Below the pieces are notes generated by a model that did not search any database, was not told the origin of the DNA, and was given only the letters and a program-made list of their open reading frames with translations. Positions 33,502 through 60,085 of a DNA stretch of 64,000 nt are shown here, piece after piece. Position numbers and translations under genes: made by a program. Each line of letters starts with the position of its first letter. The stretch's first letter is position 1. Source of the DNA: Pseudomonas fluorescens (GTDB lineage Bacteria > Pseudomonadota > Gammaproteobacteria > Pseudomonadales > Pseudomonadaceae); NCBI RefSeq assembly GCF_001708445.1, contig NZ_CP015637.1, forward strand, positions 3,163,001 through 3,227,000, written 5' to 3'.

Positions 33502-33516
33502 CACACCGTCTCGCGT

Positions 33517-37074: not shown

Positions 37075-37087
37075 GAGGGAACGCTCC

Positions 37088-38863: not shown

Positions 38864-39032
38864 CGGCGTGCAGACCTACACCGCACACCTGCACATCGTG
38901 CCTTGGGCAAAGGCGGTCGCTGGCTTCTGGATGATCTGGCTCGGCGTCTGATCTCCACCGTTCCTCCACACGCACTCAGCTGAGTCTCCACACCCCATCC
39001 GTACAATCGCTCCTTACACAGAGGAGTGGCTC

Positions 39033-40349: not shown

Positions 40350-40429
40350 CTCGCTCACCCGTCGTGCCGTTCTCAATCCCCATCAATCAGCCAGGTAGTG
40401 TGCGCTGAGTCGCGCGCTCAGGAGTCAAC

Positions 40430-41215: not shown

Positions 41216-41327
41216 TGGTGGTTGGATTTGAATACGGTTGCAGCGCAATACGAGGGGCGATGCTGGAGGTGCATCACGGGCGGCAGGCAGGACAGGGCGC
41301 CGTCAAGGAGCCCCGCCCTGGAGCAGG

Positions 41328-42484: not shown

Positions 42485-42513
42485 CAGGCTTGAGTCTCCA
42501 GGGTCGACGTTGA

Positions 42514-44411: not shown

Positions 44412-45088
44412 CGAATGGCCTCCAGTCGGCTGTCGATCTGATCGGCGGGGCCGTGAAACAGCACCCGCTGGTTGATAAGGGTGACGGACTGCGCGATACG
44501 CTTGACCTGTTCGAGGTCGTGGTTGATCCACAGGATGGTCACCCCACGGCTGTTCAGCTCCGCTACCAGTGTCTCCACCAGGCGCACGCCGGCCTCGTCG
44601 ATCCCGGCGGTGGGTTCATCGAGGATCAACAGCCAGGGCATCGGGCTTATGGCCTGGGCCAGCAGCACGCGCTGACGCTGGCCGCCGGACAGGCTGCCAA
44701 ACGGCTTTTTCCCCATCCCCGCCATACCGGTACGCGCCAGGGCCTCGACATGGGCCGCCTTGGCGGCGCGGCTTGCGCCGAAGAAGGCGGGCCGACGTTG
44801 GCCCAACAGGGCCATGAGATCGTTGACCGTCATCGGCACGTTGCGGTCGAAGTCCGGCAGTTGCGGGACATACCCTAGGGGCGTGACGCATTCACCCTCG
44901 AAGCGGATCGTCCCCGAATGCGGCATCTGGCCCAGCAGCGCACGCACCAGTGAGGTCTTGCCTCCGCCGTTGGGGCCTACCAGGCAATGCAAGGCGCCGG
45001 CTTCTATGCGCAAGCTCACCTGATCGAGCACCTGTGTACCTCCCAGTTGCAGGGAGACGTTGTCGAACACAATGGCGGGGCCGCGCAT
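44408..45088 (-). CDS. Zn/Mn-type ABC ATPase (ZnuC-like)
   Basis: The 226-residue ATPase has Walker A GPNGGGKTSLVRALL near residue 35, the Q-loop YVPQLPDFDRNVPMTVNDL, signature LSGGQRQRVLLAQA, and Walker B LLILDEPTAGID, characteristic of ZnuC/MntA. The start at 45088 has an excellent GGAGG 7 bases upstream and is preferred over an ATG at 45115 that overlaps the binding-protein stop. It powers the permease encoded next. Confidence 0.9.
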   Translation of the reverse strand: MRGPAIVFDNVSLQLGGTQVLDQVSLRIEAGALHCLVGPNGGGKTSLVRALLGQMPHSGTIRFEGECVTPLGYVPQLPDFDRNVPMTVNDLMALLGQRRPAFFGASRAAKAAHVEALARTGMAGMGKKPFGSLSGGQRQRVLLAQAISPMPWLLILDEPTAGIDEAGVRLVETLVAELNSRGVTILWINHDLEQVKRIAQSVTLINQRVLFHGPADQIDSRLEAIR

Positions 45089-45111
45089 CGCGTATTCCTC
45101 CTTTAGCGTAT

Positions 45112-46044
45112 TCATTGCTTCGTAAACTCGACGGCTTGCGCCAGGGTTTCGAGGTTTTCGCGCATCGCCACCTCAAACTCGTCCGCGCTGTAGGTATCGC
45201 CGGTGATGTGGGACAGGGCGAACACCTTCACGCCGGTGGCGGCTTCGATGGGTTTGGCCAAGTCGAGGGAGAAGTTTTTCTCGGCGAACAGCACTTTGAC
45301 GTTGGCCTTCTTGATCGCCTCGATGGTGTTGGCCAACTGGCGTGCCGTCGGCGCGACGCCGTGGCGCGGCTCGATCACGGCGCTTACGAACAGGCCGAAC
45401 TCCTGCATCATGTAGTCGTAGCCCGCATGGGTCGTCGCACAGCGGAACGAAGACAGGTCCAGCGCGGCGAAGCGCGTCATGAAGCCTGCGCGTAGCTCGC
45501 GGATACGGCCCGCATACGCCAGGGCATTTTTTCGATACACCGCAGCGTTGTCCGGGTCCAGCTCTCCCAGCCGGCGAGCGATCTCGAACACCTGCTGTAT
45601 CGCTGCCGTGGTGGACACGAAGGTGTGCGGGTTGACCACCTTGACCCCTTCCTGGTCGCCACCGATGGGAATCAGCGCCACCGTGGCATTCGCCTGGATA
45701 ATCGGCAGCGTTTGCGTGCGGCCGGCAGCCTTGATGATCTGGAAGGCCCATTCATCGTGACCGATGCCGTTGACCACCAGCACATCGATATTCATCGCGC
45801 GGGTAATGTCGTCGGGCTGCGGCTGGTAGTTGTGCGGGTTAGCCTCTGCGGGGATCAGCGCAACGACCTCGGCCCGATCACCGACGATATTGCTCACGAA
45901 GCTGTAGTAGGGATGCAGGGTGATGCCGATCTTGAGCTTCTTTGCCGAGGCGAAGGCAGGGCCGGCAAGCGCGATGGCGGGTATCAACACCAGCAGCGCG
46001 ATACAACGGCGCCACAAGGCGCGGTGTTTCGTAGAAACAGTCAT
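45112..46044 (-). CDS. ZnuA/MntC-like metal-binding protein
   Basis: The 310-residue precursor has a signal peptide (CIALLVLIPAIALAGPAFA) and the SBP family 9 fold with candidate metal ligands in LHPYYSFV, the NPHNYQPQPDD segment, CATTHAGYDYMM and LFAEKNFS. The long His-rich loop of ZnuA is absent, so Mn or another metal is as likely as Zn. The start overlaps the preceding stop. It is the first of two binding proteins for the same ABC transporter. Confidence 0.87.
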   Translation of the reverse strand: MTVSTKHRALWRRCIALLVLIPAIALAGPAFASAKKLKIGITLHPYYSFVSNIVGDRAEVVALIPAEANPHNYQPQPDDITRAMNIDVLVVNGIGHDEWAFQIIKAAGRTQTLPIIQANATVALIPIGGDQEGVKVVNPHTFVSTTAAIQQVFEIARRLGELDPDNAAVYRKNALAYAGRIRELRAGFMTRFAALDLSSFRCATTHAGYDYMMQEFGLFVSAVIEPRHGVAPTARQLANTIEAIKKANVKVLFAEKNFSLDLAKPIEAATGVKVFALSHITGDTYSADEFEVAMRENLETLAQAVEFTKQ

Positions 46045-46745
46045 GGCTGGGTTCCTTTTACGCGTTCGATTTCACTGGCACCGTCGTACGGGATGACTTG
46101 GCGCCAATCCTCGCCGACCAGGGATTCGGGCTTGACGATGGCGGGGTAGGGCGCGTTCGGGTCACGGTGGACCCAGATCGTCGCTTGGTTGGCCCACATC
46201 ACCCCCGCATGGGCGTGACCGATGACCAGCAGGTAGGCGCTCTGGCCCGGTGCATGGCCGCCAGAGCCGTAGTACACCGTTGCACCTTGCCCCAGGGTGG
46301 CCTGGGACACAGCGTTGACGGGCGGGTTCGCCTCAGCGGCATCATCGTCATGGCCACCTGTATGGGCCAGGTGGGAGCCAGGCAGGATCAATTGCCAGTG
46401 CACCTCGCCATTGGTTTTCCAGAAGGCATCCCGGTAGAAGGGCGGCAGCAACAGCGTCTGCGCCTGCTCCAGGGTGACCCAGCCGCCGGTATCGTTGTTG
46501 TTCCAGATGATTTCTTCACCGGCCGGTAACAACGCGCTGTGTATGGCCTGATCGACCGCGCCCAAGCCATCGAAGGAGCGCACCTGCCAGCTCAACGGGG
46601 TGGGCGGGCCAACTCTTTCGGGGCGCAGCAGCACATAGCCTGCCACGCCGGCGATGACGGCCAGGGTCGCCAGCACCAACGCCAGCGACTCCCATCCGCT
46701 GGAGCGTGGGCGCACCTGCGTGATTGCAGCGTCGCGGCGCGCCAT
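46041..46745 (-). CDS. Membrane-anchored His-rich protein (possibly DUF6162)
   Basis: The 234-residue protein has one N-terminal membrane helix (LALVLATLAVIAGVAGYVLL) and a periplasmic domain with several His clusters (HLAHTGGHDDD; GSGGHAPGQ; VIGHAHAGVMW) and Trp residues. I think it belongs to DUF6162, described beside Pseudomonas metal ABC transporters, but this name is from memory. It might hand metal to the binding proteins. The start at 46745 overlaps the previous stop; a longer frame to 46853 is inside the neighbouring gene. Confidence 0.65.
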   Translation of the reverse strand: MARRDAAITQVRPRSSGWESLALVLATLAVIAGVAGYVLLRPERVGPPTPLSWQVRSFDGLGAVDQAIHSALLPAGEEIIWNNNDTGGWVTLEQAQTLLLPPFYRDAFWKTNGEVHWQLILPGSHLAHTGGHDDDAAEANPPVNAVSQATLGQGATVYYGSGGHAPGQSAYLLVIGHAHAGVMWANQATIWVHRDPNAPYPAIVKPESLVGEDWRQVIPYDGASEIERVKGTQP

Positions 46746-47233
46746 CAGAGGAACGCGATCCAGCGGCCCAGGAAGACCACGCCCGCCCACAACAGCAACG
46801 AGCTGAAGCCGGCCACGCGCGCCTGGCGGGGAGGCGGCAGTGTCGTGTCCCATTCGGCAATTCGGCGAAAGGCCCCGAGATGGAAGACTGCCATGTTGAT
46901 CCCCGCCAGTATCAACAGGCCCATTTTGAAAAGGAACGCGGTGTTCTGCACATAGGTCGTGCCATTGGCGCAGAACATCAGCAGGCCAGTGATCACACAG
47001 GTCATGAACGCGACCCAGGTGTACGGCAGCAGATCCTGGATCAGTTTCAGCGCGCCGCGCCGGTGGGCGGTCACGCCAAGCAGGCGTAAGTCCACGACAG
47101 CGATGGTGCCGTAGACGATGGCGATGCCGATCACATGCACCGATTCCAGCATCGGGAACACCGAGCCTGACTCGCGAATGAACGTCGCGAGCTGAGTGTC
47201 CTGGACGGCTTGCAGCAGAGGTTGAATATCCAT
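46745..47233 (-). CDS. Small four-helix membrane protein A (DUF6644-like)
   Basis: The 162-residue protein has about four membrane helices, with a conserved start (FIRESGSVFPMLESVHVIGIAIVYGTIAVVDLRLLGV) and the ending VVFLGRWIAFL. A sister protein is encoded next upstream (47266-47757, 163 residues) with the same pattern (VQSIHIIAITVLFGSALISDLRLAGV, ending ICGRWIAYTI). The paired His near the first helix could bind haem or metal. Function is unknown. AGG lies 8 bases upstream of the start at 47233; a longer frame to 47332 was rejected. Confidence 0.65.
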   Translation of the reverse strand: MDIQPLLQAVQDTQLATFIRESGSVFPMLESVHVIGIAIVYGTIAVVDLRLLGVTAHRRGALKLIQDLLPYTWVAFMTCVITGLLMFCANGTTYVQNTAFLFKMGLLILAGINMAVFHLGAFRRIAEWDTTLPPPRQARVAGFSSLLLWAGVVFLGRWIAFL

Positions 47234-47265
47234 GGAGAATACCTGAGAACTTTGGTTGAAAACGC

Positions 47266-47757
47266 TTAGATCGTGTAGGCGATCCAGCGGCCGCAGATGA
47301 TCACGACGCACCACAAACCGATCGACAGCCACGCACAGGCCTTGACGGAACCCGGCGCGTCGTCACTGTCTACGTTGCCGGCGGGGCGCCGCAGCAGCGG
47401 GCGACGAAGCAGCCAGGTCAAGCTGAACGCGGCCACCACGAGGACCATCTTCAGCCAGAACGTCGAGTTGACGAGCACCCGATCAGGCTCGGCGATGATC
47501 ATCACCAGCCCGGTGCACAACAGGACGATCAGTGCATTGCGCATCCAGGGGTAGTAACGGCGGACGATGCCGCGCAAGGGCTCATCGCTGGCGAACACGC
47601 CCGCCAGGCGCAGATCGGAAATCAGCGCCGAGCCGAAGAGCACGGTGATGGCGATGATATGAATGCTCTGCACCGTGGGGATGACCCACAGGATGTCGCG
47701 GATGGCGGTGCTTAAGGGAGACCCGTAGATCCAGGCAATGATGAGTGAAGAGGACAT
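47266..47757 (-). CDS. Small four-helix membrane protein B (DUF6644-like)
   Basis: The 163-residue protein is a paralogue of the following gene product (46745-47233), sharing the SIHII-DLRLAGV segment and a GRWIA end. It has about four membrane helices and a basic loop (LLRRPLLRRPAGN). The pair could form a heterodimer. GGAGAAAAGCCG precedes the start at 47757. It comes 21 bases after the secreted hydrolase gene, so it is in the same transcript. Function is unknown, and the DUF6644 assignment is tentative. Confidence 0.65.
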   Translation of the reverse strand: MSSSLIIAWIYGSPLSTAIRDILWVIPTVQSIHIIAITVLFGSALISDLRLAGVFASDEPLRGIVRRYYPWMRNALIVLLCTGLVMIIAEPDRVLVNSTFWLKMVLVVAAFSLTWLLRRPLLRRPAGNVDSDDAPGSVKACAWLSIGLWCVVIICGRWIAYTI

Positions 47758-47778
47758 CGGCTTTTCTCCTGCAATGGG

Positions 47779-49269
47779 TTAGAAGTCTTGAGGGTTTGCG
47801 ATCGGATGCAGACCCGCCGCATCCTCCGGTAGCAAGTACCCTTGCTGGATCGAAACGGCTTTGGCGTCTTCGAACTTCTGTGCATAGCGGCTGAAGTTTC
47901 CATAACGCCGGCCGAGCACTTCCTTCGAGTAAGGCACCTTGGTGTCGTAGATCAGCCCGCAGCCGGTCTCTTGGTCGGTGAGGTAGGTGGCGCTTGGCAC
48001 TTGGATCCACGGCGGGCGCACGCCGCCTTGCAGGTTGCCGGTGGCGGGCGCACGGGCAGCGGCCTTGCCGTCGCGTATCACCCGCGGGGCGTTGGGCATC
48101 GGCTTGCCGTCGCGTACCCACTGGTCCATGCCATCCAGCAGCGCCGAGACCACCAGTTCCACCGGTTCGTCATACAGCGTCTGGCAGCGCGGGTCGTCGC
48201 CCTTGCCGACATCGGCCGCGAGCTTCTCGGTGTGCTCCGTGCCGAGGTCGGCCAGACGCAGGTGGGGCATGCCGGTGACTTCGTAGTAGCGCACCTGCGG
48301 GGAGTCGGTGTCCGGGGGCAGGGGGATGCCTTCGATCACGTCATGCATCAATTCGGACTGGCTGTAGACGGTGACGAACGGCACGCCTTCGGGCATCTGC
48401 CGGGGCACGCGGATCACGTCGCCACCCACTTCCCCGTAGGCCATGCGGCCGGTCATGTAGGCGTCGATCAGCGGTGTTTCGTCGGGCATGCGCCATTGCT
48501 GGTGACGGCCCTGGTCGAGATAGTCCATCCAGACTTGCGCGGTGACGGCCCAGCTATTCACATAGACGCGCTGCACATCCAGGCCCGCCAAAGGGCTCTG
48601 TGCCCCTTTGGTTTTAAGCAGCAGCGCCAGTTGCGCACCGATGCCCTGGGACTGGGGCGCAAACGGATCGGGCGCGGCGCCCCGCGTGAAGTGTGCCGGG
48701 TCGTAATAGGTGCCCAGCGGCGCGTAGCGGGCAAAGTCGAAGCGGCGCATGAACTCAAAGTTCACGATCGGTCCGTACTGGGCGATCTGTTCGGCTTCGG
48801 CCTCTGGGGTGTCGGAGATGAACTTGGGGTCCACCGCCGGCTTGTTCACATTCAGCGTGTACCCGACGTATGCGTAGCCGCGGCGCAGCAGATAGTCGCG
48901 GGTCAGGATCCAACCGGCGGCACGTTCGCCGAACCAACTGAATGGTTCGATCACTACCGTGCCATTGAAACGTGCCGGGTCCGCCGGTTTGCGCACCAGA
49001 ATGCGCGTGGTGTAAGGCGCTTCCAACAGGGTTTTGCCAGCGGCGGTGATGGCCGGGGCGACGCCTTGCAGGTAGTACTCTTGCTCGATGTAGCCGTAGT
49101 GGTTGAGGTCGCTGTATTCGGTGCCAGGGCGCGTCGCCGACGACAGCGGCGCCTTGTCGGAAGGCGGCACCGCGATCGCCGTGGGCATGCGGGGCACCTC
49201 AGCGAACGTGTTCGCCGCGATGCACAGCCATAGCACGACGCTGATGCTGATAGGGGTCAGGCGTTCCAT
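47779..49269 (-). CDS. Secreted alpha/beta-hydrolase-domain protein
   Basis: The protein of about 496 residues has a signal peptide (ISISVVLWLCIAANTFA) and matches the large alpha/beta hydrolase domain family (PF20091-like): YIEQEYYLQGVAP, RILVRKPADPARFNGTVVIEP, and a possible nucleophile Ser in the GIGAQLALLLK region, where the classical GxSxG is not obvious (SQGIGAQ). Its substrate is unknown. The start at 49269 has GGAG nine bases upstream, and 49308 is an alternative. It is part of a run of minus-strand genes with a secreted DUF6152 protein. Confidence 0.7.
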   Translation of the reverse strand: MERLTPISISVVLWLCIAANTFAEVPRMPTAIAVPPSDKAPLSSATRPGTEYSDLNHYGYIEQEYYLQGVAPAITAAGKTLLEAPYTTRILVRKPADPARFNGTVVIEPFSWFGERAAGWILTRDYLLRRGYAYVGYTLNVNKPAVDPKFISDTPEAEAEQIAQYGPIVNFEFMRRFDFARYAPLGTYYDPAHFTRGAAPDPFAPQSQGIGAQLALLLKTKGAQSPLAGLDVQRVYVNSWAVTAQVWMDYLDQGRHQQWRMPDETPLIDAYMTGRMAYGEVGGDVIRVPRQMPEGVPFVTVYSQSELMHDVIEGIPLPPDTDSPQVRYYEVTGMPHLRLADLGTEHTEKLAADVGKGDDPRCQTLYDEPVELVVSALLDGMDQWVRDGKPMPNAPRVIRDGKAAARAPATGNLQGGVRPPWIQVPSATYLTDQETGCGLIYDTKVPYSKEVLGRRYGNFSRYAQKFEDAKAVSIQQGYLLPEDAAGLHPIANPQDF

Positions 49270-49304
49270 TCGTAAAGCTCCAGCAGGGGGTTGGATAGGC
49301 GTCA

Positions 49305-50087
49305 TCACTCAAGGCTCAGAGATGCTTTGCCCTCGCTGTCGATCACGATCTGGTTGTTCTCGCACACGTACTCTTGAATGGCGTAGTTGGAGCGCTTGTA
49401 CTCAAACGTAAAGCGATACGGGGTGTTGAGTACTTGCGGGTCTTCGATCAGGACCTGGTTTTCCAAGCGATCCGGCCCGCGCAGCCGGATGCGTTCGGTG
49501 ATCTTCATGGCCGGCCCGTGGGGCACGTCATAGAAGCGCACGTCGGTGCGTACGCTTTGTGTCTCGACCACCAGCGTGTCGCCCTCCCAGTGGCCGCGCG
49601 AATGGCCTTGGTACAGGGGGTCGAGCTTGTCTGTTGGCGGCATGGCCTGGTTCAAGAGAATCCGTCGCACTTGCTGGAGGTACTCGCCGAGGATGATCAC
49701 TTGCTTGTCATCGCGAATGATCTGGATCGGGAAGAGCGCCGCCATCATGGTCGGCATACCCTCGGGCAGGCACCTTGAACTGGTGGTGGCGATCGGCTTC
49801 CCGGCTGCGTTGGCCACGGCTTGTTTCTTCTTGAGCTCGACGTACTCGGCGTCATAGGGTGCCTTGAGGTCCATCGGACCGCCGGGGTGTACCGGATCGT
49901 CCGGGTTTTCGCCGAACCAGTCGTCCGGGGTTCTTTCCCAAGTACCGCTGATGTCAGGCCGGGCGGCCGAGCTGTGCTTGTCGGCTTGGGTTTTCGAGGC
50001 TGTCGCGGCGCTGCTCATCCCGGAGAGCGTCATGAGGACCACCCCCAGAACGATCATGGCTGTGTTGGAAGAACGTGCTCGTTTCAT
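49305..50087 (-). CDS. Secreted protein of unknown function
   Basis: The 260-residue precursor has a signal peptide (MIVLGVVLMTLSGMSSAATA). The mature protein begins PDISGTWERTPDDWFG and contains CLPEGMPTMM and the segment QGHSRGHWEGDTLVVETQS, recurrent in secreted proteins that sit beside DUF6152 genes in proteobacteria. No catalytic motif was recognised. The start at 50087 has GGAG eight bases upstream. It lies between the DUF6152 gene and the secreted hydrolase gene, probably in the same operon. Confidence 0.65.
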   Translation of the reverse strand: MKRARSSNTAMIVLGVVLMTLSGMSSAATASKTQADKHSSAARPDISGTWERTPDDWFGENPDDPVHPGGPMDLKAPYDAEYVELKKKQAVANAAGKPIATTSSRCLPEGMPTMMAALFPIQIIRDDKQVIILGEYLQQVRRILLNQAMPPTDKLDPLYQGHSRGHWEGDTLVVETQSVRTDVRFYDVPHGPAMKITERIRLRGPDRLENQVLIEDPQVLNTPYRFTFEYKRSNYAIQEYVCENNQIVIDSEGKASLSLE

Positions 50088-50151
50088 TGAAATGTCTCCG
50101 CGTTGCTGGTTTGCCCAGTTCTGGTGTTGCCGCATTCGCAAAGGGCTGCGT

Positions 50152-50544
50152 TCAGCCGCCGCCCGAGAGCACCACGTCACCCATCTTGATCTCCACCAGC
50201 AACCCGCCCGGCTCGCCGCTTTTCAACGGCTTGAACGACACCTCGGCGCTTTCGCCAGCCTTGACCGAGCTGGACGTCCAGCCCGTGCGTTGCAGCGCGT
50301 TGACGCTGCCCGTCTCGATCTTGTAGCGCTGTGCCGGCGGGCCGGGAACGTCGAGGTAAATCGTGATGTGGGGGTTGGTCCAGGCGAAGCGCTCGACGAC
50401 ACCCTTAATCGTGATCGTCTGGGTCTGGTCGAACAGCGCAAATGAATGGTGGGCACTGGCAACAGGCGGTAAGGCACTGCAGCCGATCAGGGTTAGAAGA
50501 CAAAGCCCCTGACGGAGCAACGGGAAGCGTGACAAAGGGGACAT
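50152..50544 (-). CDS. DUF6152-family secreted protein
   Basis: The 130-residue precursor has a signal peptide ending PPVASA and the family hallmark AHHSFALFDQTQTITIKGVVERFAWTNPHI at its mature N-terminus. The double His next to the cleavage site and WTNPH are typical of DUF6152, a beta-rich fold of unknown function found beside the type of secreted protein encoded next. It heads the minus-strand cluster. The divergent region to the porin gene is 237 bases long. Confidence 0.75.
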   Translation of the reverse strand: MSPLSRFPLLRQGLCLLTLIGCSALPPVASAHHSFALFDQTQTITIKGVVERFAWTNPHITIYLDVPGPPAQRYKIETGSVNALQRTGWTSSSVKAGESAEVSFKPLKSGEPGGLLVEIKMGDVVLSGGG

Positions 50545-50781
50545 GGCGGGGGGCCTCGTTTTTTATGGTTCTTATGAACCGAGCATAGGGAGCTCGCGTT
50601 CAGAGGCGTATCCCAAAACGGCAACCGTTGAAGGTTTTCAGGCGCTTGGCGCGGATGAGGTATCCCGTAACGACAGATCGGCGCGCAGGCCCTTGCAGAT
50701 GCTGATTTGGGTTACCGCGTTGGCGGCCCAAGCCGAAACACTTGGGCTTTACCTCAGAACTATAAAAACAGGAGAGACGTT

Positions 50782-52119
50782 ATGCGCATTCCCCCCTACG
50801 CACCCTTATTGTCGATGGTTGCACTCTGTGCGGTCGGCGTGCAGGCACATGCCTACACGCTCTACACCGAAGATGATGGTGCAACCGTCTTGAACGCCGA
50901 CCTGGGCGCCGCATTTGGTTGGTTTGGTAGTACTCGTAACTACATCGGTGACCCGGAGAAAGAGCCCGGCAGCATGCGCTGGCAGGAGGGCTACGCCAAA
51001 TATGGTCTCAACGGCACGACCGACAAGATCATCGCGGGCTCCGTCTATGGCGGTTTCAGCCTGCTCAGCAGCGGCACCTGGGGCGACGGGGACGCAGGGG
51101 CGATCACCGCGGGCAATGAGCGCCGTACCGACGTGGAAGATGCTTTCCTCGGCTGGAGATCAGGCGACCTGCTGCCCGCCCTGGGCAAGGACGGTGTGGA
51201 TTTCTCTTTCGGTCGCCAGTTGGTGACGGTGGACGGTTTCCTGATCACCGATGATGGCTACAACCCAGGCAAGGCGTTCAACCCCATCGAGGGCGTGCGC
51301 GATGGCCGATTCGACAGGGGGGGCGCCTTTTACCTTGGCCAACGCCTGGCGTTTGGCAACACGGCGGTGCTGAAGCTGGGCGGCAAGGAAGGGCTGCACG
51401 GCAGCTTGATATGGTTGAAATCCGATAACCCTGGGCAGTCCAAGACCGAACTGGCAGTGGGCACTATCGACTACACCACGGCCATCGGTTCGATCGGTTC
51501 GACCTACATACACGGCCTGGATGTGGATGAGAAATATGCCTTCGCAGATCGGCTTGAACGCAAGGGCATGAATGTCTACAGCATTCGCGGGCAGGGCAAC
51601 GCCGGGATTGAGAACGCCGACTTCGCATTCGAGGTGGCGCGCCAGGAAAAACGTTCCGGTTCACAGCGGGCGATGTTCTTCGACGCGGGCTACACCTTCA
51701 CCGATGTGCGATGGCAGCCGACGGTCAGTTATCGCTATTCGCGCTATTCCGAAGGGTGGGACTTCCTGTTCCAGGGCGGCTTTCGCAAACGCTACCAGGG
51801 TGAAGTCGCGTCCAACTACGCCGGTTCAGTGACGTCGAATATGCAGATCAACGACGTGCTGCTCTCTGTCCGGCCCACCGAGAAATTGACCCTGAACGCG
51901 ATGGCCTTCGACTACCACCAACTGTCCCGTCGCAATGAACGGGACTTCGCGGCGCGGGAGGTCGACCTGTTTCTGGATTGGATGGTCACGGATAACATCA
52001 CGCTTTCGCCGTTGATCGGCCTCTATAAGCCTGAGAAGTGGTTAGGCAACGGGGGCGGGCAGAGCGGCAGCGCGTCGACCAACACGTACATGCAGTTCAT
52101 TGTGTGGGCGACGTTCTGA
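50782..52119 (+). CDS. Outer-membrane beta-barrel porin
   Basis: The 445-residue precursor has a signal peptide (LLSMVALCAVGVQAHA) followed by alternating amphipathic beta strands, and ends with Phe (YMQFIVWATF), as required by the outer-membrane insertion machinery. It resembles large proteobacterial porins related to AlgE-type or OprD-like channels, but no specific family motif was recognised. GGAGAG lies 6-7 bases upstream of ATG 50782, which is preferred over the longer frame to 50707. Divergent from DUF6152, it may import the substrate of that cluster. Confidence 0.75.
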   Translation: MRIPPYAPLLSMVALCAVGVQAHAYTLYTEDDGATVLNADLGAAFGWFGSTRNYIGDPEKEPGSMRWQEGYAKYGLNGTTDKIIAGSVYGGFSLLSSGTWGDGDAGAITAGNERRTDVEDAFLGWRSGDLLPALGKDGVDFSFGRQLVTVDGFLITDDGYNPGKAFNPIEGVRDGRFDRGGAFYLGQRLAFGNTAVLKLGGKEGLHGSLIWLKSDNPGQSKTELAVGTIDYTTAIGSIGSTYIHGLDVDEKYAFADRLERKGMNVYSIRGQGNAGIENADFAFEVARQEKRSGSQRAMFFDAGYTFTDVRWQPTVSYRYSRYSEGWDFLFQGGFRKRYQGEVASNYAGSVTSNMQINDVLLSVRPTEKLTLNAMAFDYHQLSRRNERDFAAREVDLFLDWMVTDNITLSPLIGLYKPEKWLGNGGGQSGSASTNTYMQFIVWATF

Positions 52120-52150
52120 GTTGTCATTGAGGGCTGTTGCGGGGCCAGGC

Positions 52151-52177
52151 AGGCGTTGACGTTTTGCGTCAACGCCT
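52151..52177. terminator. Strong hairpin between convergent porin and cytochrome b561 genes
   Basis: AGGCGTTGACG (52151-52161) pairs perfectly with CGTCAACGCCT (52167-52177) around a TTTTG loop, an 11-bp stem. It is likely a bidirectional terminator. Neither side has a T-run. Confidence 0.6.
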
Positions 52178-52184
52178 CATCCAT

Positions 52185-52748
52185 TCAGAGCATGCGGCGC
52201 AGCACGTCGTTGCGCGGGTCGCGGTCGTAGAAGCGATGCTTGAGGGCGCCCGCCACATGCAGCACGATCAGGACAAGCAAGCTATAGGCGAGGACTTTGT
52301 GCAGCCATTGGAACACGACGAACCAATCGTCATTCTTTGGCAACAGCTCGGGCAGGTTAACCCCAAAAAAGAACACGCCGTCGCTCATGGTGAACGTGCT
52401 CGACATGGAGTACCCCATCAACGGCACGATCACCAACAGCACATACATGGCGCGCTGAATCAGGCGTGACAGGAACCGTTCATACCCCGCCAGGGTTTCC
52501 AGCGGCTGCGGCAAATTGGGGGTGCGAAAGCGCACGGCGAGCTGAGTCAGGACCACCAGGAACGTCAACACCCCGAAGGACTTGTGCCAGGGGTAATACA
52601 GCTCGAATTTGCTCGCCACCTCATCATTCATTCCGGTCATATGCCAGCCGGCCCAGAGCAGGCCCAGCACGAGCACGGCACGCACCCAGTGCAACACGCG
52701 CAGGGAGGTCGGGTACCGATCGATTGTCGGTTGATCTATTGGGTTCAT
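52185..52748 (-). CDS. Cytochrome b561 family protein
   Basis: The 187-residue protein has four membrane helices and the conserved His of b561 proteins (SLRVLHWVRAVLVLGLLWAGWHM; YYPWHKSFGVLTF; FQWLHKVLAYSLLVLIVLHVAGALKH). These coordinate two b haems and pass electrons between quinol and a periplasmic partner. The start at 52748 follows a plain upstream region (GAGAACCTGACATG). It is not in an obvious operon. The nearest same-strand gene, aldehyde dehydrogenase, ends 83 bases upstream. Confidence 0.87.
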   Translation of the reverse strand: MNPIDQPTIDRYPTSLRVLHWVRAVLVLGLLWAGWHMTGMNDEVASKFELYYPWHKSFGVLTFLVVLTQLAVRFRTPNLPQPLETLAGYERFLSRLIQRAMYVLLVIVPLMGYSMSSTFTMSDGVFFFGVNLPELLPKNDDWFVVFQWLHKVLAYSLLVLIVLHVAGALKHRFYDRDPRNDVLRRML

Positions 52749-52830
52749 GTCAGGTTCTCCACGGATCGATGCACGGTTGAATGGCCACCCTCAACGTTGG
52801 AGGGTGGCTCGGTCAGGACAACGAATAGGC

Positions 52831-54285
52831 TCAGGCGGGCAGGAGGACGGTGATGACTTTCTCCTCGGTGTAGGCCAGCGCGCCGCTGAACCCACCTTCA
52901 CGTCCGATACCGCTGGTCTTGACGCCGCCCCAAGGCAGGTTGGCGTCCAATGGGCTCCAGCAGTTGATGCCCACGGCGCCAGCTTTCACTGCCGCAGCAA
53001 CGCGGTGCGCTCGTACCAGGTCGCTGGTCCAGACCGTGGCCGCCAGGCCGTAGCTGCTGTCGTTGGCCAGGGCGACCGCTTCGTCTTCGCTGTCGAACGT
53101 AATCAGCGTGCCGACGGGGCCGAAGATCTCATCCCGGGCGATTTCCATGTCGTTGCGGGCGTTGGCGAAGATCGTCGGACGCACGAACCAGCCCTGCTTG
53201 GGTGCCGAGACGCCGCCGGCCAGCAGCGTGGCGCCTTGGTCGATGCCCAGTTGGATGTAGCGGTTGACGCGATCGAATTGAGCCTTCTTGGCCACCGGCC
53301 CCATCTGTACGCCGGGCTCGCGAGGGTCGCCCACGCTCACTGCCTGTGCGGCTTCGGCCAGCGCTGCACCAAAACGGTCGGCGAGGCTGCGTTGCACCAG
53401 GATCCGCGAACCGGCCGCACACACCTGGCCCTGGTTGGCGAACAGACCGAGGGTACAGCCGCGCAGGGCGTCGTCGAAGGACGCATCATCGAACACAATC
53501 TGCGGGCTCTTGCCGCCCAATTCCAAGGCCACGCGCTTGAACAACACACCGGCGGTGCGCTGGATTTCACGCCCAGCCTCGGGGCTGCCGGTGAAGCTGA
53601 TCTTGGCAATATCCGGGTGTTCGCACAGGGCGCGCCCCACTTCATTGCCGTAGCCGGTGACCACGTTGATCACGCCGTCCGGAAAGCCCGCTTCCTGCGC
53701 CAGCCGTGCCAGGTGCAGGGCCGATTGCGGGGTTTCTTCCGATGGCTTGACCACGACGGTACAGCCCGCCGCCAGCAACGCAGCGAGTTTCCACACCGTG
53801 ATCATCAGCGGCGAGTTCCAGGGCACGATGGCACCCACCACGCCGACCGGCTCGCGCACCGTGTACGACAGGGTTTTGGTGCCGAAGTAACCCCCGGTGG
53901 GAATGGTGCGACCTTCAAGCTGGTTGGCCCAGCCCGCGGCGGCGCGCAGGTTGGCGATCGCGTTGGGCAGGTCCATCCGGCGCGGCTCGATGGGGGAGCG
54001 GCCGATAGCGTTGGCGTCCAGATCGGCCAGCAGTTCAGTGTCGCGCTCAACCAGGTCGGCCAGTTTCGACAACAGTCGGCCACGCGCGGCGCCGTCGAGT
54101 TGGCTCCACTCGCCGCGTTCCAGTTGCTGGCGTGCAGCGGCCACCGCACGGTCGACATCCTCGCGGGTGCCTCGCGCGGAGCTGCCGTACACCTGTTCAT
54201 TCACGGGGTTGACCAGGTTGATACGACGACGGTCGAAGGCTTCGCAGGACACACCTTCGATGAAATGATTCAAGTGCTCAGTCAT
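52831..54285 (-). CDS. Aldehyde dehydrogenase (gamma-aminobutyraldehyde/betaine type)
   Basis: The 484-residue enzyme has PWNSPLMITVWKLAALLAAG near residue 160, general base Glu in ALELGGKSPQIVFDD, and catalytic Cys in NQGQVCAAGSR near residue 295. It is a standard NAD-dependent ALDH of the amine-catabolism branch. It comes just after a class III aminotransferase, so it probably oxidises the aldehyde made by transamination. The start at 54285 is only 27 bases from the aminotransferase stop, so they form an operon. The AraC gene at 55882 is the likely regulator. Confidence 0.88.
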   Translation of the reverse strand: MTEHLNHFIEGVSCEAFDRRRINLVNPVNEQVYGSSARGTREDVDRAVAAARQQLERGEWSQLDGAARGRLLSKLADLVERDTELLADLDANAIGRSPIEPRRMDLPNAIANLRAAAGWANQLEGRTIPTGGYFGTKTLSYTVREPVGVVGAIVPWNSPLMITVWKLAALLAAGCTVVVKPSEETPQSALHLARLAQEAGFPDGVINVVTGYGNEVGRALCEHPDIAKISFTGSPEAGREIQRTAGVLFKRVALELGGKSPQIVFDDASFDDALRGCTLGLFANQGQVCAAGSRILVQRSLADRFGAALAEAAQAVSVGDPREPGVQMGPVAKKAQFDRVNRYIQLGIDQGATLLAGGVSAPKQGWFVRPTIFANARNDMEIARDEIFGPVGTLITFDSEDEAVALANDSSYGLAATVWTSDLVRAHRVAAAVKAGAVGINCWSPLDANLPWGGVKTSGIGREGGFSGALAYTEEKVITVLLPA

Positions 54286-54312
54286 ATTGCGGTCCTCGAG
54301 TAATGGGCAAGG

Positions 54313-55689
54313 TCATGCTTTGAGAGAAGCCAGGGCGTCGCCGAAGATATCCAGGGCCTTGAAGAACAGCTCGCGAGATATGGTCAGCGAAGGCATGACG
54401 CGCATGACGTTGCTGTAGCGGCCACACGGAATCATCAGCACACCGTGGTTGAGCAGGTAGCCCATCAGTTGGCCGATCTTCTCGCCCGCCAGGGGCGCCT
54501 TGGTGAGTGGGTCTTCGATCAGTTCGATACCGATCATCAGGCCGCGCCCGCGCACTTCGCCGACCAACGGGCTGTTGAAGGCGCGAATATGCGCCTGTGC
54601 CTCCAGGCCCAGGGTGTGGGCGCGGTTGAGGAGGTCAAGGTCCGGGTCCTGGAGGATGCTGATGTTGGTCAGTGCCACCGCGGCCGACAACGAGTTGGCG
54701 GCGAACGTGTTGGGCATGGAACCGTCGGGAATCTGCGCCGCCAGGTCCGAGCGCATGATCAGGCCGGCCATGGGCAGGTCGCTGCCGATGCCTTTGCCAA
54801 AGGTGAGCATGTCGGGCTTCACGCCGGAATGTTCGACCGCCCACATCTTGCCGGTGCGACCGGCACCCGATTGCACTTCATCGACAATCAGTAATGTGCC
54901 GCTGCGGTCGCAGGCCTTGCGCAGCAGTTGCAGGAACTCCGGAGAGGGTGGCACGTAGCCGCCTTCGCCCTGTACCGGCTCCACGATCACGGCAGCCACG
55001 TCATCGGCCGCGGTGTAGGGGGTGTTCAGTAGATAGTCGATGTACTCACCGGCGATCTGCTCGGCGCTCTTGTGGGTGGTGTCGAAAGGGAAGCGGTAGG
55101 CGTAAGGGTAGGGCGCGTGAATCACCCCACCCATCTGGGCACCAAAGCCCTTGCGGTAGGCCGTGCCGGTGGTCAGCGAACCGGAAGCGTGCCACACGCC
55201 GTGGTAGCCGCCGTGGAAGGCGATGATCTGGTGCCGCCCGGTGACGCGCTTGGCGAACTTGATCGCCGCCTCCAACGCATCACTGCCGCTTTGCGTGAAG
55301 AAGGTAACGCAGTCGCCACGCAAACCCTCGGGCGCGATTTCGGAAAGCTTGGCAGCCAACTCGGTACGCCGGGTGCTGTTGATTTCCAGGGCATGCATCA
55401 GCACTTCGGACTGTTCGCGAATCGCCTGCACCACTTTGGGGTGGCAGCGGCCCACGCTGCTGACACCGACGCCTGCGGACAGGTCGATGTAGGTGTTGCC
55501 GTCGGGGTCTTTGAAGGTCGCACCGAAGGCACGGTCCATGGCCACCGGCATACGTCCGCCGCCGCGCGCCATCGACTCGGTGCGCGCCGACAGCGCCAGG
55601 GCTTCGCGGGTCTTGGGGCCGGGCAGTTCGCCGGAAATAATCTGCGGGGCATCTGCAAAGTGCAGGGATTGAAATTTGGCTTCACTCAT
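54313..55689 (-). CDS. Class III aminotransferase
   Basis: The 458-residue PLP enzyme has the PLP-binding region SGSDALEAAIKFAKRVTG near residue 130, Asp in LLIVDEVQSGAGRTG near residue 255, and the Schiff-base Lys in LTFGKGIGSDLPMAG near residue 285. It resembles omega-aminotransferases such as 4-aminobutyrate or diaminobutyrate-type enzymes, and the amine substrate is not determined. The operon partner is the aldehyde dehydrogenase. The upstream 192-base region is divergent from AraC. GAGAGACCGTC precedes the ATG. Confidence 0.87.
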   Translation of the reverse strand: MSEAKFQSLHFADAPQIISGELPGPKTREALALSARTESMARGGGRMPVAMDRAFGATFKDPDGNTYIDLSAGVGVSSVGRCHPKVVQAIREQSEVLMHALEINSTRRTELAAKLSEIAPEGLRGDCVTFFTQSGSDALEAAIKFAKRVTGRHQIIAFHGGYHGVWHASGSLTTGTAYRKGFGAQMGGVIHAPYPYAYRFPFDTTHKSAEQIAGEYIDYLLNTPYTAADDVAAVIVEPVQGEGGYVPPSPEFLQLLRKACDRSGTLLIVDEVQSGAGRTGKMWAVEHSGVKPDMLTFGKGIGSDLPMAGLIMRSDLAAQIPDGSMPNTFAANSLSAAVALTNISILQDPDLDLLNRAHTLGLEAQAHIRAFNSPLVGEVRGRGLMIGIELIEDPLTKAPLAGEKIGQLMGYLLNHGVLMIPCGRYSNVMRVMPSLTISRELFFKALDIFGDALASLKA

Positions 55690-55881
55690 GACGGTCTCTC
55701 TGGAATGTCTATTTAAGTGTGCCGATCATCTCCGGCGCGCGTTCCAGGCCGGTATCCCGAATCGGCACATGGTTTGCTTGCATTCCAGCACATAAACAAT
55801 TTGCAGGACTTTTGCGATGTGCGACTATCAATTGGATCGCCGATCTAAAAAAAACAAAAATATTGGTAGAGGCATGCCCCA

Positions 55882-56856
55882 ATGAAAAACCAAACGATCA
55901 GCCATTTTCGCGATATCCATGTCCATGCAGCCACCATCCAGCAGTGGAACCAGGACTACAGCCAGTTAACCTCGGGCTGCGCCGAGAGCACGCTCATGCA
56001 ACTGACAACCTCGGGTTGCCACCTGTTTCTCGAACAGATCAACCAGCGCGTGGTACAGAACGGCGTGGCGCCTAAAGGCAAGATGTGCTTTGCCGTGCCG
56101 ATCAACGTCCCGGGATCGATTCGCATGCAGGGGCGCGAGGTAGATGACAGCAGCCTGTTCTTTCTCCATGGCGGCGAGGAATTCATGTTCCATATGCCGA
56201 TGGGCATGGAGCTGCTTTCCATCACCTTCGAGCGTGAATTATTCGATGAGGCGTTGGAGCAGACCGCTTCGGCCAAGGAACTCAACCGGTTGCTGCGCCA
56301 GCCGGTGATCAGGGTTTCTCCCCAGCGATTTGCACAGGCCCGGCGCCGATTGCTGGCGCTTTTCTCCCAGGCACTGGTGTACGAAGATCTCGATAGCACG
56401 CTGGATCAAGAGCGCGAGGCGGCGTTGGAGCAGGCGATGCTCAGCGAGTTGTTGCAACTGATGATCGACCCAGCCTGCGACAAGCAACAGCGCAGTCCCA
56501 GCTCCACTCGCAGTTTTATCGTAGAGAAATGCCACCGCCTGGCAACCGGCGAAATGATCAATGTGCCCAGCGTGATCGATTTATGCCAACGCCTTCAGGT
56601 GAGCCGACGCACGGTGCAGAACAGCTTCCGCTCGGTCGCCGAGACCACTCCACTGAATTACTTGCGCTCCGTGAGGCTTAACGGTGTCCGTCGAGCCTTG
56701 ATGTCTACCCGCGCCTGCGAGCTGTCGATTGGCGATGCCGCGGCCCAGTGGGGCTTTTATCACCTGAGCCATTTTGCCGCGGAATACCAAGAGCTGTTCG
56801 CGGAATTGCCATCCCAGACTGCCCGAGCCGCCATCACGAGTTGTGTGCGGGCCTGA
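55882..56856 (+). CDS. AraC-family transcriptional regulator
   Basis: The 324-residue protein has a ligand-binding N-terminal region (about 1-215, with a cupin-like FAVPINVPGSIRM segment) and an AraC double helix-turn-helix at the C-terminus (about 225-320: VPSVIDLCQRLQVSRRTVQNSFRSV; LSIGDAAAQWGFYHLSHFAAEYQELF). It resembles the EutR/FeaR-like group that controls amine catabolism. It is divergent from the aminotransferase-aldehyde dehydrogenase operon and lies 222 bases upstream of the truncated permease-U32 fusion, so both probably belong to its regulon. Confidence 0.87.
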   Translation: MKNQTISHFRDIHVHAATIQQWNQDYSQLTSGCAESTLMQLTTSGCHLFLEQINQRVVQNGVAPKGKMCFAVPINVPGSIRMQGREVDDSSLFFLHGGEEFMFHMPMGMELLSITFERELFDEALEQTASAKELNRLLRQPVIRVSPQRFAQARRRLLALFSQALVYEDLDSTLDQEREAALEQAMLSELLQLMIDPACDKQQRSPSSTRSFIVEKCHRLATGEMINVPSVIDLCQRLQVSRRTVQNSFRSVAETTPLNYLRSVRLNGVRRALMSTRACELSIGDAAAQWGFYHLSHFAAEYQELFAELPSQTARAAITSCVRA

Positions 56857-57078
56857 CAAACAACGCTAGAAAGACCTGAAATAGCCTGCGTCATCAGCTC
56901 TGAATGCGCAGGAGCTTCGCTGTGGGTGCTTGAGTTACCGATTTGGGATATCGGGGCGTTGCAGCGCAGGCATAGGATCAGTGCCAGCGTGCAATAAGAA
57001 CGACAAGCTGTTTGGTGACGCTGCGTAGCCGGCTGCACCGATCCTAAAGCGACTGCCTCATACAATAAGGTCAACAAC

Positions 57079-59205
57079 ATGAGTGTATTTAACCCGGTCA
57101 ACAGCTCCACGGAGCTCAAGCGTGGTGCCCTGGGTGTGGGCTTCATTATCTTCTTCGTGGTGTCGGCGGCAAGCCCGCTGAGCGTGATCGCCGGCGGCTT
57201 CCCCATTGGCATCATGCTGGGCAATGGCGCCGGTACCCCGGCCTTGCTGATCCTCGCCTTGCTGGTGCTGCTGGCGTTCTCGGTGGGTTACACCACCATG
57301 TCGCGCGCCGATGTAGATGGCGTCGGCGGGCCCAGCTTCGGCGCCCGCCACAATGCCTGTAACGACGTGAGCGATATCGCTCACTTGGTCGAATTCGCCC
57401 GGCGCTACCACGCCCGTGTCTTCACCACCCTCAACACCATCCTGCATGACAACGAACTGGAACCCGCGCGCAAGCTGATCCATCAGCTCTACGACGCCGG
57501 CGTCGATGCGTTGATCGTGCAAGACCTGGGCGTGATGGAGCTGGATATTCCGCCCATCGAGCTGCACGCCAGTACCCAGACCGATATCCGTACCCTCGGG
57601 CGCGCCAGGTTTCTTGACCAGGCGGGTTTCTCGCAGCTGGTCCTGGCCCGTGAGCTGAACCTGCAGGAAATCCGCGCCATCGCCGATGAAACCGATGCCG
57701 CCATCGAGTTCTTTATCCACGGCGCGCTGTGCGTGGCGTTCTCCGGGCAGTGCAATATTTCCCACGCGCAGAATGGCCGCAGTGCCAACCGTGGCGACTG
57801 CTCCCAGGCCTGCCGCCTGCCATACACCTTGAAAGACGACCAGGGCCGCGTCGTGGCCTTTGAAAAGCATCTGCTGTCGATGAAAGACAACAACCAGAGC
57901 GCCAACCTGCGCGCCTTGGTGGAAGCCGGTGTGCGTTCGTTCAAGATCGAAGGCCGCTACAAGGACATGGGCTACGTGAGGAACATCACGGCCTATTACC
58001 GCCAGCGTCTCGACGAGATCCTCGAAGACCGTCCGGACCTGGCCCGCGCGTCCAGCGGCCGTACCGCACACTTCTTTCTGCCCGACCCGGAAAAAACCTT
58101 CCACCGTGGCAGCACCGACTACTTTGTCAGCGACCGCAAGATCGACATTGGCGCCTTCGACACCCCGACCTTCACCGGCCTGCCGGTGGGTGTGGTGGAA
58201 AAAGCCGGCAAGCGCGACTTGCAAGTGGTCACCCATGAGCCGCTGTCCAACGGCGATGGCCTCAATGTGCTGGTCAAGCGTGAGGTGGTCGGGTTCCGCG
58301 CCAATATCGCCGAGCCCAAGGGTGAATTCGAGGAAGACGGCGAGAAGCGCTACCGCTACCGCGTCGAGCCGAATGAAATGCCGGCCGGCCTGCATCAGTT
58401 GCGCCCGAACCACCCGTTGAACCGCAACCTGGACCATAACTGGCAGCAGGCGTTGCTCAAGACCTCGGCCGAACGCCGTATCGGCCTGTCATGGGTCGCA
58501 CGTTTGCGCGAAGAACAGCTGGAAGTCACCGCCACCAGCGAAGAAGGTATCCGTGCCAGCGTCACCCTGCCCGGCCCGTTTGGCGTGGCCAACAAACCGG
58601 AACAGGCGCTGGATACCCTGCGCGACCTGCTTGGCCAACTGGGTACCACCGAGTATCACGCCACCCGTATTGAGCTGGATGCACCCCAGGCGTTCTTCAT
58701 TCCCAACTCGCAGCTCAAGGCATTGCGCCGCGAAGTGATCGAAGCGCTGACCGCCGCCCGTGTTGCCGCACACCCGCGTGGCGGGCGCAAGGCCGAGGTC
58801 ACGCCGCCGCCGGTGTACCCGGAAGCGCACCTGTCGTTCCTGGCCAACGTGTACAACCAGAAGGCTCGCGACTTCTACCACCGTCACGGCGTGAAGCTGA
58901 TCGATGCGGCCTTCGAAGCCCATGAAGAGACCGGCGAAGTGCCGGTGATGATCACCAAGCACTGCCTGCGTTTCTCGTTCAACCTGTGCCCTAAACAGGC
59001 CAAGGGTGTCACGGGCGTGAAGACCAAGGTTGCGCCGATGCAGTTGATTCATGGCGACGAAGTGCTGACCCTGAAGTTCGACTGCAAACCCTGCGAGATG
59101 CACGTGGTGGGCAAAATCAAGGGGCACATCCTTGGGCTGCCGCAACCGGGCAGCGTGGTGGAGCATTTCAACCCGGAAAACCTCATCTATCAGGGCACAC
59201 ACTGA
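57079..59205 (+). CDS. Chimeric gene: first 76 residues of an APC permease fused to truncated U32 protein (RlhA-like)
   Basis: The 708-residue frame has two unrelated parts. Residues 1-76 are the start of an APC-family permease (ALGVGFIIFFVVSAASPLSV; ALLILALLVLLAFSVGYTTMSR), two helices of about twelve. From about residue 83 the sequence is a U32 protein of the RlhA/YdcP type (GGPSFGARHNACNDVSDI; RGDCSQACRLPYT; SFKIEGRYKDMGYV), lacking its first 45 or so residues. RlhA hydroxylates 23S rRNA C2501; the Cys-rich segments are retained. Between the parts, 57307-57327 encodes ADVDGVG, but its reverse complement reads ADAIYIG, precisely the peptide expected in an intact protein. The permease would have matched the neighbouring amine-catabolism genes. 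Function of the fusion is doubtful. Confidence 0.85.
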   Translation: MSVFNPVNSSTELKRGALGVGFIIFFVVSAASPLSVIAGGFPIGIMLGNGAGTPALLILALLVLLAFSVGYTTMSRADVDGVGGPSFGARHNACNDVSDIAHLVEFARRYHARVFTTLNTILHDNELEPARKLIHQLYDAGVDALIVQDLGVMELDIPPIELHASTQTDIRTLGRARFLDQAGFSQLVLARELNLQEIRAIADETDAAIEFFIHGALCVAFSGQCNISHAQNGRSANRGDCSQACRLPYTLKDDQGRVVAFEKHLLSMKDNNQSANLRALVEAGVRSFKIEGRYKDMGYVRNITAYYRQRLDEILEDRPDLARASSGRTAHFFLPDPEKTFHRGSTDYFVSDRKIDIGAFDTPTFTGLPVGVVEKAGKRDLQVVTHEPLSNGDGLNVLVKREVVGFRANIAEPKGEFEEDGEKRYRYRVEPNEMPAGLHQLRPNHPLNRNLDHNWQQALLKTSAERRIGLSWVARLREEQLEVTATSEEGIRASVTLPGPFGVANKPEQALDTLRDLLGQLGTTEYHATRIELDAPQAFFIPNSQLKALRREVIEALTAARVAAHPRGGRKAEVTPPPVYPEAHLSFLANVYNQKARDFYHRHGVKLIDAAFEAHEETGEVPVMITKHCLRFSFNLCPKQAKGVTGVKTKVAPMQLIHGDEVLTLKFDCKPCEMHVVGKIKGHILGLPQPGSVVEHFNPENLIYQGTH
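57307..57327. other. Inverted 21-base segment at the permease/U32 junction
   Basis: Read on the minus strand, these bases translate to ADAIYIG, the normal U32/RlhA residues before GGPSFGARH. Its ends are inverted repeats GCCGA (57307-57311) and TCGGC (57323-57327). This fits a small inversion or fold-back template switch during the rearrangement that joined the two genes. Confidence 0.75.
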
Positions 59206-60085
59206 CCCTGTGCGAGCGGGGCCACCACCAGCCCCGCTGCAACCCCGCCGCTGCCAGCAGAATGGCCGCTACCCCGAGCCATTGCAGCCAGCCCAGGCGA
59301 TGCCCGAAGGCAATCCAATCGACGAAGATCGCCGCAATCGGGTAGATAAACGACAGTGCGCCGGTGATGGCGGTGGGCAGTTTCTGGATCGCGCCATACA
59401 GCAACACATACATCAACCCGGTGTGCACCACGCCGAGCGTCGCCAGTGCCGCCCAGGCGTTGGTGGTGACCGGCAAGCTATGCCAAGGCACCAGCGGCGC
59501 CAGCAGCAGTGCGCCCGTCGTCACCTGGATCAACGCCATCAAATGCGGCGGTACGTCCTTCAAACGCTTGATGATCAGCGCGGCAATCGCGTACAGCAAT
59601 GCCGCGCCCAGCGCCAAGGCGATGCCTGCCAGGTAATCGTCGCCGGTTGGCTGGTCGCCATGGGCGGTGACAATCGCCAGCATTCCCAGGAACGCCACGC
59701 TCAGCCACGCCAGTTTCTGCACGGTGATTTTTTCACCTAGAAACACGGCCGCCAGCATCACCAGCATGAACGGCTGCACGTTGTACACCGCCGTGCTGAT
59801 GGCGATCGATGCGCGGGAATAGGATTCGAACAACAGCAACCAGTTGCCGACGATGGCCACGCCACTGAGCATCGCCAAGCCCAGCTTGGCCCAACTGAGC
59901 AGGTCCAGCCGCAGGTAGCCCAGCAGCGCGCACACCAGCAGCAGCGTCAGCCCGCCGATCAAACAGCGCCAGAACACCACTTCGATGACCGACACGCCCG
60001 ACACCAGCACAAACCAGCCGATGGTCCCCGAGATCAGCATGGCGGCGACCATTTCCCACGACCCGCGACGGATGGATGTATCCAT
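59183..60085 (-). CDS. EamA/DMT-family transporter
   Basis: The 300-residue protein has ten membrane helices in two EamA repeats (about 10-130 and 150-275; IAISTAVYNVQPFMLVMLAAV; LPTAITGALSFIYPIAAIFVD). Drug/metabolite transporters of this family export amino acids or metabolites, often under control of a neighbouring Lrp-type regulator as here (60195-60638, divergent). The C-terminus (SHRVSVCPDR) extends over the convergent U32 stop by 23 bases. GAGGAGCTTCAATC lies upstream of the ATG at 60085. Confidence 0.9.
   Translation of the reverse strand: MDTSIRRGSWEMVAAMLISGTIGWFVLVSGVSVIEVVFWRCLIGGLTLLLVCALLGYLRLDLLSWAKLGLAMLSGVAIVGNWLLLFESYSRASIAISTAVYNVQPFMLVMLAAVFLGEKITVQKLAWLSVAFLGMLAIVTAHGDQPTGDDYLAGIALALGAALLYAIAALIIKRLKDVPPHLMALIQVTTGALLLAPLVPWHSLPVTTNAWAALATLGVVHTGLMYVLLYGAIQKLPTAITGALSFIYPIAAIFVDWIAFGHRLGWLQWLGVAAILLAAAGLQRGWWWPRSHRVSVCPDR
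59215..59238 (+). terminator. Hairpin downstream of the chimeric U32 gene
   Basis: AGCGGGGC (59215-59222) pairs with GCCCCGCT (59231-59238) with an 8-base loop, just after the U32 stop and within the 3' end of the convergent EamA gene. No T-run follows. It may end transcription from the plus strand. Confidence 0.45.

Follow-up and report, generated by a model that had tools for sequence, protein, structure and literature searches.

A permease–rlhA fusion gene in Pseudomonas fluorescens as one end of a gene-breaking chromosomal inversion with readable repair scars

Large segments of bacterial chromosomes can be reversed by inversions between rRNA operons, insertion sequences (IS) and other repeats, an example being the difference between PAO1-UW and PAO1-DSM (excerpt of PMC6199493). 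In yeast, broken ends fold at natural inverted repeats and copy themselves, which gives rise to fold-back inversions and inverted duplications at double-strand breaks, and a hairpin-capped chromosome is turned into a dicentric inversion chromosome (excerpt of PMC10622511). Here, we examine a fusion gene in a 64,000-nucleotide stretch of the Pseudomonas fluorescens chromosome (contig NZ_CP015637.1, positions 3,163,001 to 3,227,000; hereafter the window), in which the start of an APC-family permease gene is joined in frame to most of rlhA, named after RlhA, the 23S rRNA C2501 hydroxylation factor of E. coli (excerpt of PMC6599085). We attribute this puzzling gene to a balanced inversion, one end of which it marks, and such a gene must not be taken for an evolved multidomain protein.

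The locus resembles the repeat-mediated inversions in that a large segment is reversed, but two unrelated genes were cut, the surroundings of the joints contain none of four repetitive extragenic palindromic (REP)-type motifs, and no repeat was seen at the two ends other than a 78-bp stretch left by the event. As in the yeast case, the ends appear to have folded at a natural inverted repeat, whereas only 16 to 23 bases are flipped here and the ends were joined to another locus in a balanced and reciprocal manner. The contacts between the two genes have 0 to 1 bp of homology, as in the scars of bacterial end joining by Ku and LigD, both of which are encoded in the genome. To our knowledge, templated flipped insertions are not part of the usual description of Ku/LigD scars. 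The kind of event is already known; its scars are unusual. In this natural bacterial case, an inversion free of long repeats has left two scars that are legible down to single bases and show signs of fold-back copying at a short inverted repeat.

The fusion gene and its reciprocal joint

The fusion frame covers window positions 57079-59205 on the plus strand and comprises 708 codons, open throughout, as had been claimed in an earlier note on this stretch. It consists of permease codons 1-76 (window 57079-57306) and, from 57323, the frame of an rlhA-type U32 protein. We refer to the joint inside this gene as J1 and to a reciprocal joint near G000:C1:3132.5 kb as J2, where G000 is the genome of the strain itself, C1 its contig, and G000:C1 coordinates are those of the genome rather than of the window. 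The parts are as follows.

57079..57306, plus strand: codons 1-76 (5' part) of the APC-family permease gene, whose own leader and start are retained (alignment to permeases of relatives)
57229..57306, plus strand: 78-bp stretch with an identical inverted copy at G000:C1:3132552-3132475, minus strand (exact match)
57307..57322, plus strand: 16-bp flipped piece of rlhA, the native ADAIYI codons read backwards, at J1 (sequence comparison)
57323..57328, plus strand: TCGGCG microhomology where the flipped piece and native rlhA meet (read from the sequence)
57323..59205, plus strand: 3' part of rlhA, coding for the U32 protein from native residue 34 to its end, in frame from the permease start (Pfam, rlhA loci and alignment)

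Pfam searches placed Peptidase_U32 (PF01136, 245 bits) at fusion residues 128-353 and DUF3656 (PF12392, 67 bits) at residues 448-561, while no Pfam permease model and no sequence of a solved structure matched the fusion at E 0.001. E. coli RlhA, also named YdcP, has DUF3656 in common with the U32 protein of the fusion. Residues 1-76, assigned to an APC permease in the note, match Pseudomonas permeases of this family, with at most 95% identity over 54% of a 140-residue query from the N-terminal part among the best 120 of 2250 matches, and with 94% to 96% amino acid identity to five permeases of the genomes G006, G010 and G017. The assignment of the remainder to the U32/RlhA proteins was likewise correct, but not the estimate that some 45 residues had been lost: the resumption point is native rlhA residue 34 (GGPSFG), with about 33 native residues replaced. 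The six codons that follow the permease part (residues 77-82, ADVDGV) stem from rlhA sequence in flipped orientation, and J1 is in frame, the reading frame being kept by chance.

A DNA search of the strain's own genome showed that 78 bp of the permease remnant recur identically at C1:3132475-3132552 on the minus strand, beside short matches to rlhA. The match is exact and cannot be extended by a single base on either side, and the window and a 16-kb stretch with J2 contain one copy each. Read on the minus strand, J2 contains the rlhA start at 3132695, 40 native codons down to 3132576, 23 flipped bases and the permease from codon 51 to its stop. This joint is out of frame: the rlhA frame stops after 54 codons, and the remainder of the permease forms a 434-codon frame from an internal GTG. 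The 2 joints are located on opposite strands, 87.8 kb apart. When the joints were exchanged within the 78 bp by a script, a permease of 482 codons was obtained, which aligned to four of the permeases of G006, G010 and G017 over 482 residues and to the fifth over 475 residues, with 90% to 93% identity, and joining the native rlhA parts gave 659 codons.

Both reciprocal joints are thus present in the genome, and neither native joint was found. Since J1 and J2 hold complementary halves of the 2 genes on opposite strands, they are the reciprocal products of one inversion, and it is very probable that a single inversion, which reversed some 87.8 kb (G000:C1:3132553 to 3220306), broke the APC permease gene and rlhA and gave rise to both. 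In outline, a real, recent and gene-breaking inversion is well supported, and the repair mechanism is deduced from the scars. One of the two explanations offered in the note was a deletion, which would also give an in-frame joint of two gene parts; because the parts of both genes that should be missing exist at J2, in the opposite orientation, a deletion was rejected and retains practically no probability.

The gene neighborhoods of relatives agree with this reconstruction. In G017, the permease gene and rlhA are both intact, each in its expected neighborhood. The first row consists of ALDH, aminotransferase, AraC regulator, permease, MFS transporter and chemoreceptor, and the second of RidA, rlhA, EamA and Lrp together (these short names are labels given in this analysis). 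G006 has the same first row as G017 except for a match to MFS, and the first four genes are present within the stretch fetched from G010. In all 3 genomes the AraC gene is followed by the permease gene, which bears out the suggestion that the permease remnant occupies the permease site of an AraC-linked operon. In the strain's own genome, ALDH, aminotransferase and AraC are found at J1 with the permease start, and MFS and the chemoreceptor at J2 with the permease end; RidA is found at J2 with the 5' part of rlhA, and EamA at J1. An inversion predicts such split neighborhoods. The segment and the neighboring genes in the window are listed below; no tRNA genes were found in the window.

1..57306, no strand: right-hand two thirds of the inverted segment, whose left end (J2, G000:C1:3132553) lies about 30.4 kb before the first position of the window
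55882..56856, plus strand: AraC-family (EutR-like) regulator, adjoining the permease start, inside the inverted segment (family search and loci of relatives)
54313..55689, minus strand: class-III aminotransferase of the same cluster as the AraC regulator, inside the inverted segment (family search and loci of relatives)
52831..54285, minus strand: aldehyde dehydrogenase from this cluster, likewise within the inverted segment (family search and loci of relatives)
59183..60085, minus strand: presumed EamA-type transporter gene, outside the inverted segment, a neighbor of rlhA in some relatives (19 of 80 rlhA loci)

To examine rlhA more broadly, we kept 80 of 592 confirmed loci, all from species other than the strain's own. 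RidA was located at most 1.2 kb upstream of rlhA in 54 of these loci, EamA was a neighbor in 19, and both were present in 18. All 80 loci match the fusion from residue 77, read natively past the break point (GGPSFGARHN) and have ELLSPA in frame upstream, while the permease motif tried upstream of rlhA occurred in none and no match to the 78 bp was obtained at E 1e-5. The rlhA part is also encoded in 21 of 24 genomes of the same genus (own genome excluded), each matching from residue 75 or 76; the other three (G005, G018 and G022) contain distant U32 paralogs only.

In the comparison with 37 other genomes, no match of more than 40% identity covered both parts of the fusion; their permeases align to residue 90 at most, and one U32 paralog (G019, 31% identity) aligns over residues 39-253. 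A 32-bp pattern across the joint was found in 1 of 398 genomes of the genus, namely the strain's own, in a search for exact matches only, so that variants would be missed. Widespread intact fusions in related strains, which according to the note would have argued against a strain-specific deletion, were rejected on this count. A protein search with fusion residues 1-140 gave no sequence covering more than 64% of the query among the best 120 of 2250 matches, in a database clustered at 90% identity, where a similar fusion could hide inside an rlhA cluster.

Scars at the two joints and possible routes of repair

The J1 scar consists of 16 flipped bases of rlhA between permease codon 76 and the TCGGCG from which rlhA is native again. 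At J2, the native part of rlhA stops with TCGGCGCC, after codon 40, and the next 23 bases are the reverse complement of sequence further upstream in rlhA; native and flipped rlhA bases form a perfect inverted repeat there (31 bp, with 26 bp in the loop). The flipped pieces at both joints derive from adjoining rlhA sequence, at microhomologies of 6 to 8 bp, and both switches of orientation use one native element, GGCGCCGA, which pairs with two nearby copies of TCGGCG. The contacts between permease and rlhA sequence have 0 to 1 bp of homology. Both scars formed at a natural short inverted repeat in rlhA (GGCGCCGA...TCGGCG...TCGGCGCC), located at window 57323-57345 and in its surroundings.

These scars fit the priming of synthesis by folded-back broken 3' ends, as in yeast (excerpt of PMC10622511), followed by end joining. 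In such a route, rlhA would have broken at or near the natural inverted repeat, the broken ends may have folded back on themselves at 6 to 8 bp and copied or kept 16 to 23 bases in flipped orientation, and they would then have been joined with 0 to 1 bp of homology to the ends of the permease break, by Ku/LigD or a like pathway. Ku and LigD are encoded at C1:2764043 and 2765536 by consecutive frames of 304 and 839 codons on one strand, both scoring over the family cut-off. We put the chances that fold-back and end joining in one step made the inversion at about even; if so, bacteria would have a route to inversion that needs no long repeats.

The 78-bp duplication would fit either staggered ends that were filled in or a copied patch that later recombined, and the sequence is compatible with both. 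In the latter case, the break in rlhA would have been patched with two flipped rlhA bits and 78 nt of permease sequence, and the patch would later have recombined with the permease gene, lying inverted, so that homologous recombination flipped the segment and the same end product was reached by another order of events. The exchange does lie exactly in the identical, non-extendable 78-bp stretch, the two flipped pieces come from rlhA nearby, as expected of a single patched break, and a staggered permease break of 78 nt is not needed. However, homologous recombination usually needs more than 78 bp, and the patched intermediate was found in none of the 80 rlhA loci from other species, which all continue natively beyond the break. 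We regard the two-step order as a tentative alternative, of lower probability than the direct route. Still more doubtful is the idea that the 78-bp patch, copied from the permease gene 88 kb away, acted, and can still act, as homology for flipping the segment, as a two-state switch made by chance during break repair. If this were true, recombination between the 78-bp copies would rebuild the permease and leave rlhA broken, and a population could hold both orientations.

A REP-mediated origin was rejected for J1 and J2, since none of the four REP-type motifs tried occurs within 1.5 kb of either joint (IS and rRNA were not searched for as such), while several neighboring block boundaries probably do have such an origin. 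The sequence repeated over 78 bp belongs to the permease gene, and pre-existing inverted repeats at both ends were not found. No published work was found that joins inversion, fold-back, microhomology and the bacterial chromosome. Judged by titles and the beginnings of abstracts, none of the work found on staggered breaks concerned bacteria, and none of that found on Pseudomonas inversions described this type of joint. Furthermore, an article on bacterial rearrangements does not mention end joining in the available portion of its main text (PMC12863080).

Consequences for the two broken genes

The loss of a full permease and the alteration of the RlhA-type protein, both foreseen in the note, were borne out. 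The permease in the fusion comprises 76 residues only, rather than the full length of about 482, and the permease frames of relatives have 482 to 502 residues. The genome search revealed no intact gene for this permease, and the only further copy found is a 354-codon fragment at 2879.2 kb. This second copy is also split: its leader and first codons are located at G000:C1:3127292-3127446 (minus strand), and its last 352 codons at C1:2879213-2880268 (plus strand), directly behind a REP-type repeat. Both paralogs have therefore been lost as intact genes. A second intact rlhA, which it had been suggested to look for, was not found in the genome either; it contains one 3' part of rlhA, that in the fusion, and otherwise U32 paralogs with 30% to 34% identity.

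The fusion retains the U32 domain in common with E. coli RlhA, whereas its first 33 residues are replaced by the permease start and the flipped hexapeptide. Residues E161, C169 and C176, which are needed in E. coli RlhA (excerpt of PMC6599085), occur at the same numbers in the Pseudomonas orthologs and are invariant in all 27 aligned rows, the fusion included; E. coli RlhA itself was not among the aligned rows, but the numbers agree. The intact N-terminus of RlhA (MSLPKHHLELLSPARD...GADAxYIGG) is missing from the fusion, as is the ELLSPA motif seen in all 80 loci, and 20 positions in the lost stretch are identical in at least 90% of the 27 rows. With this conserved stretch lost and a hydrophobic permease start gained, the fusion is most likely inactive, as judged from its sequence. 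It is probably a recent by-product and most likely not an evolved fusion protein.

The rlhA part has a nonsynonymous divergence (dN) of 0.0073 and a synonymous divergence (dS) of 0.2594 to Pseudomonas sp. JAI120, close to the values of 0.0062 and 0.25 for two intact relatives. Rates like those of intact relatives imply either a recent break or a protein that is still selected, and a recent break is the simpler of the two; the rlhA part still looks selected, which would fit a recent break. A membrane-anchored RlhA fusion that is functional and selected would account for the open frame, the retained permease leader and start, the low dN/dS and the presence of the residues required in E. coli (excerpt of PMC6599085). 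Yet the joint in a single genome of 398 and the conserved positions in the lost stretch speak against it, and we consider it very improbable.

Chromosome polarity and gene order around the segment

FtsK orienting polar sequences (KOPS, GGGNAGGG) point to dif and have been used in this way in Pseudomonas (excerpt of PMC6199493). A dif-like site was identified at 2971621, with 3 mismatches to the dif consensus. Inside the segment, 19 KOPS are forward and 1 is reverse, whereas 1 is forward and 34 are reverse from dif to J2, and 0 are forward and 2 reverse from J1 to 3226000. The difference between the segment and its flanks (88 kb to the left, with 1 and 21, plus the right flank to 3226000) is significant (Fisher p 2.7e-10), and the GC skew changes sign in the same sense, from -0.030 on the left to +0.021 inside.

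The change of polarity at both segment ends also bears on the second suggestion of the note, a chimera of assembly or amplification with joints that are absent from the cell. Amplified or long-read libraries are known to yield fold-back chimeras as artefacts, and the joints are known here from assembled sequence. Against such an artefact, the genome is a single contig with a completeness rating of 100% and contains both joints, 87.8 kb from each other, and neither native joint was found in it. It is most likely wrong, and we give it only a slight probability.

Several other observations, like the dependence on assembled sequence, weigh against the inversion as reconstructed here. The steps of fold-back and end joining are read from the scars, and the low dN/dS also fits a fusion that is still under selection. 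The SbcC complex opens hairpins, and SbcC has an open frame in this genome; a defect in hairpin processing was rejected, since the SbcC frame is open, with a score below the family cut-off as in 13 of 14 controls (SbcD was not searched for). KOPS run the wrong way (forward) again from about 3229 to 3352 kb, then in reverse, and forward from about 3540 kb, so that polarity alone would not place the right end of the segment. In JAI120, a close relative by rlhA (98% identity), the permease gene and rlhA are located about 97 kb apart and face each other, and several surrounding blocks differ in order or orientation from those of the strain studied here; in G017, the 2 genes are about 1 Mb apart. 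The simply un-flipped order of the 88 kb was seen in no genome examined, and with these rearrangements nearby the ancestral order is not established.

JAI120 is rearranged further, the local neighborhoods agree in G017, and the history is clear at the level of the genes. Since flipping the inner segment of JAI120 would give the same two joints, the choice of the flipped arc depends on the polarity of the KOPS.

The blocks of wrong-way KOPS at about 3229000-3352500 and from about 3540000, to the right of the dif-like site, suggest further inversions in this genome, and the borders of the first of them may fall in arrays of REP-type repeats, unlike J1 and J2. Perfect inverted repeats with arms of 53 bp and 69 bp were noted in REP-type arrays at G000:C1:3243526 and 3263369, where they sit in gaps between the synteny blocks shared with JAI120. 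Inverted repeats with arms of at least 25 bp numbered 12 in 800 kb here against 2 in 400 kb of JAI120, and one REP motif occurred 13 times against none in the same stretches. Within the window, short repeats of the GTGGC(G/A)AG type, facing both ways, form an array at positions 60640-60880; it separates the gene at 60881-61891 from an Lrp-type regulator and lies close to the border of the following wrong-way block.
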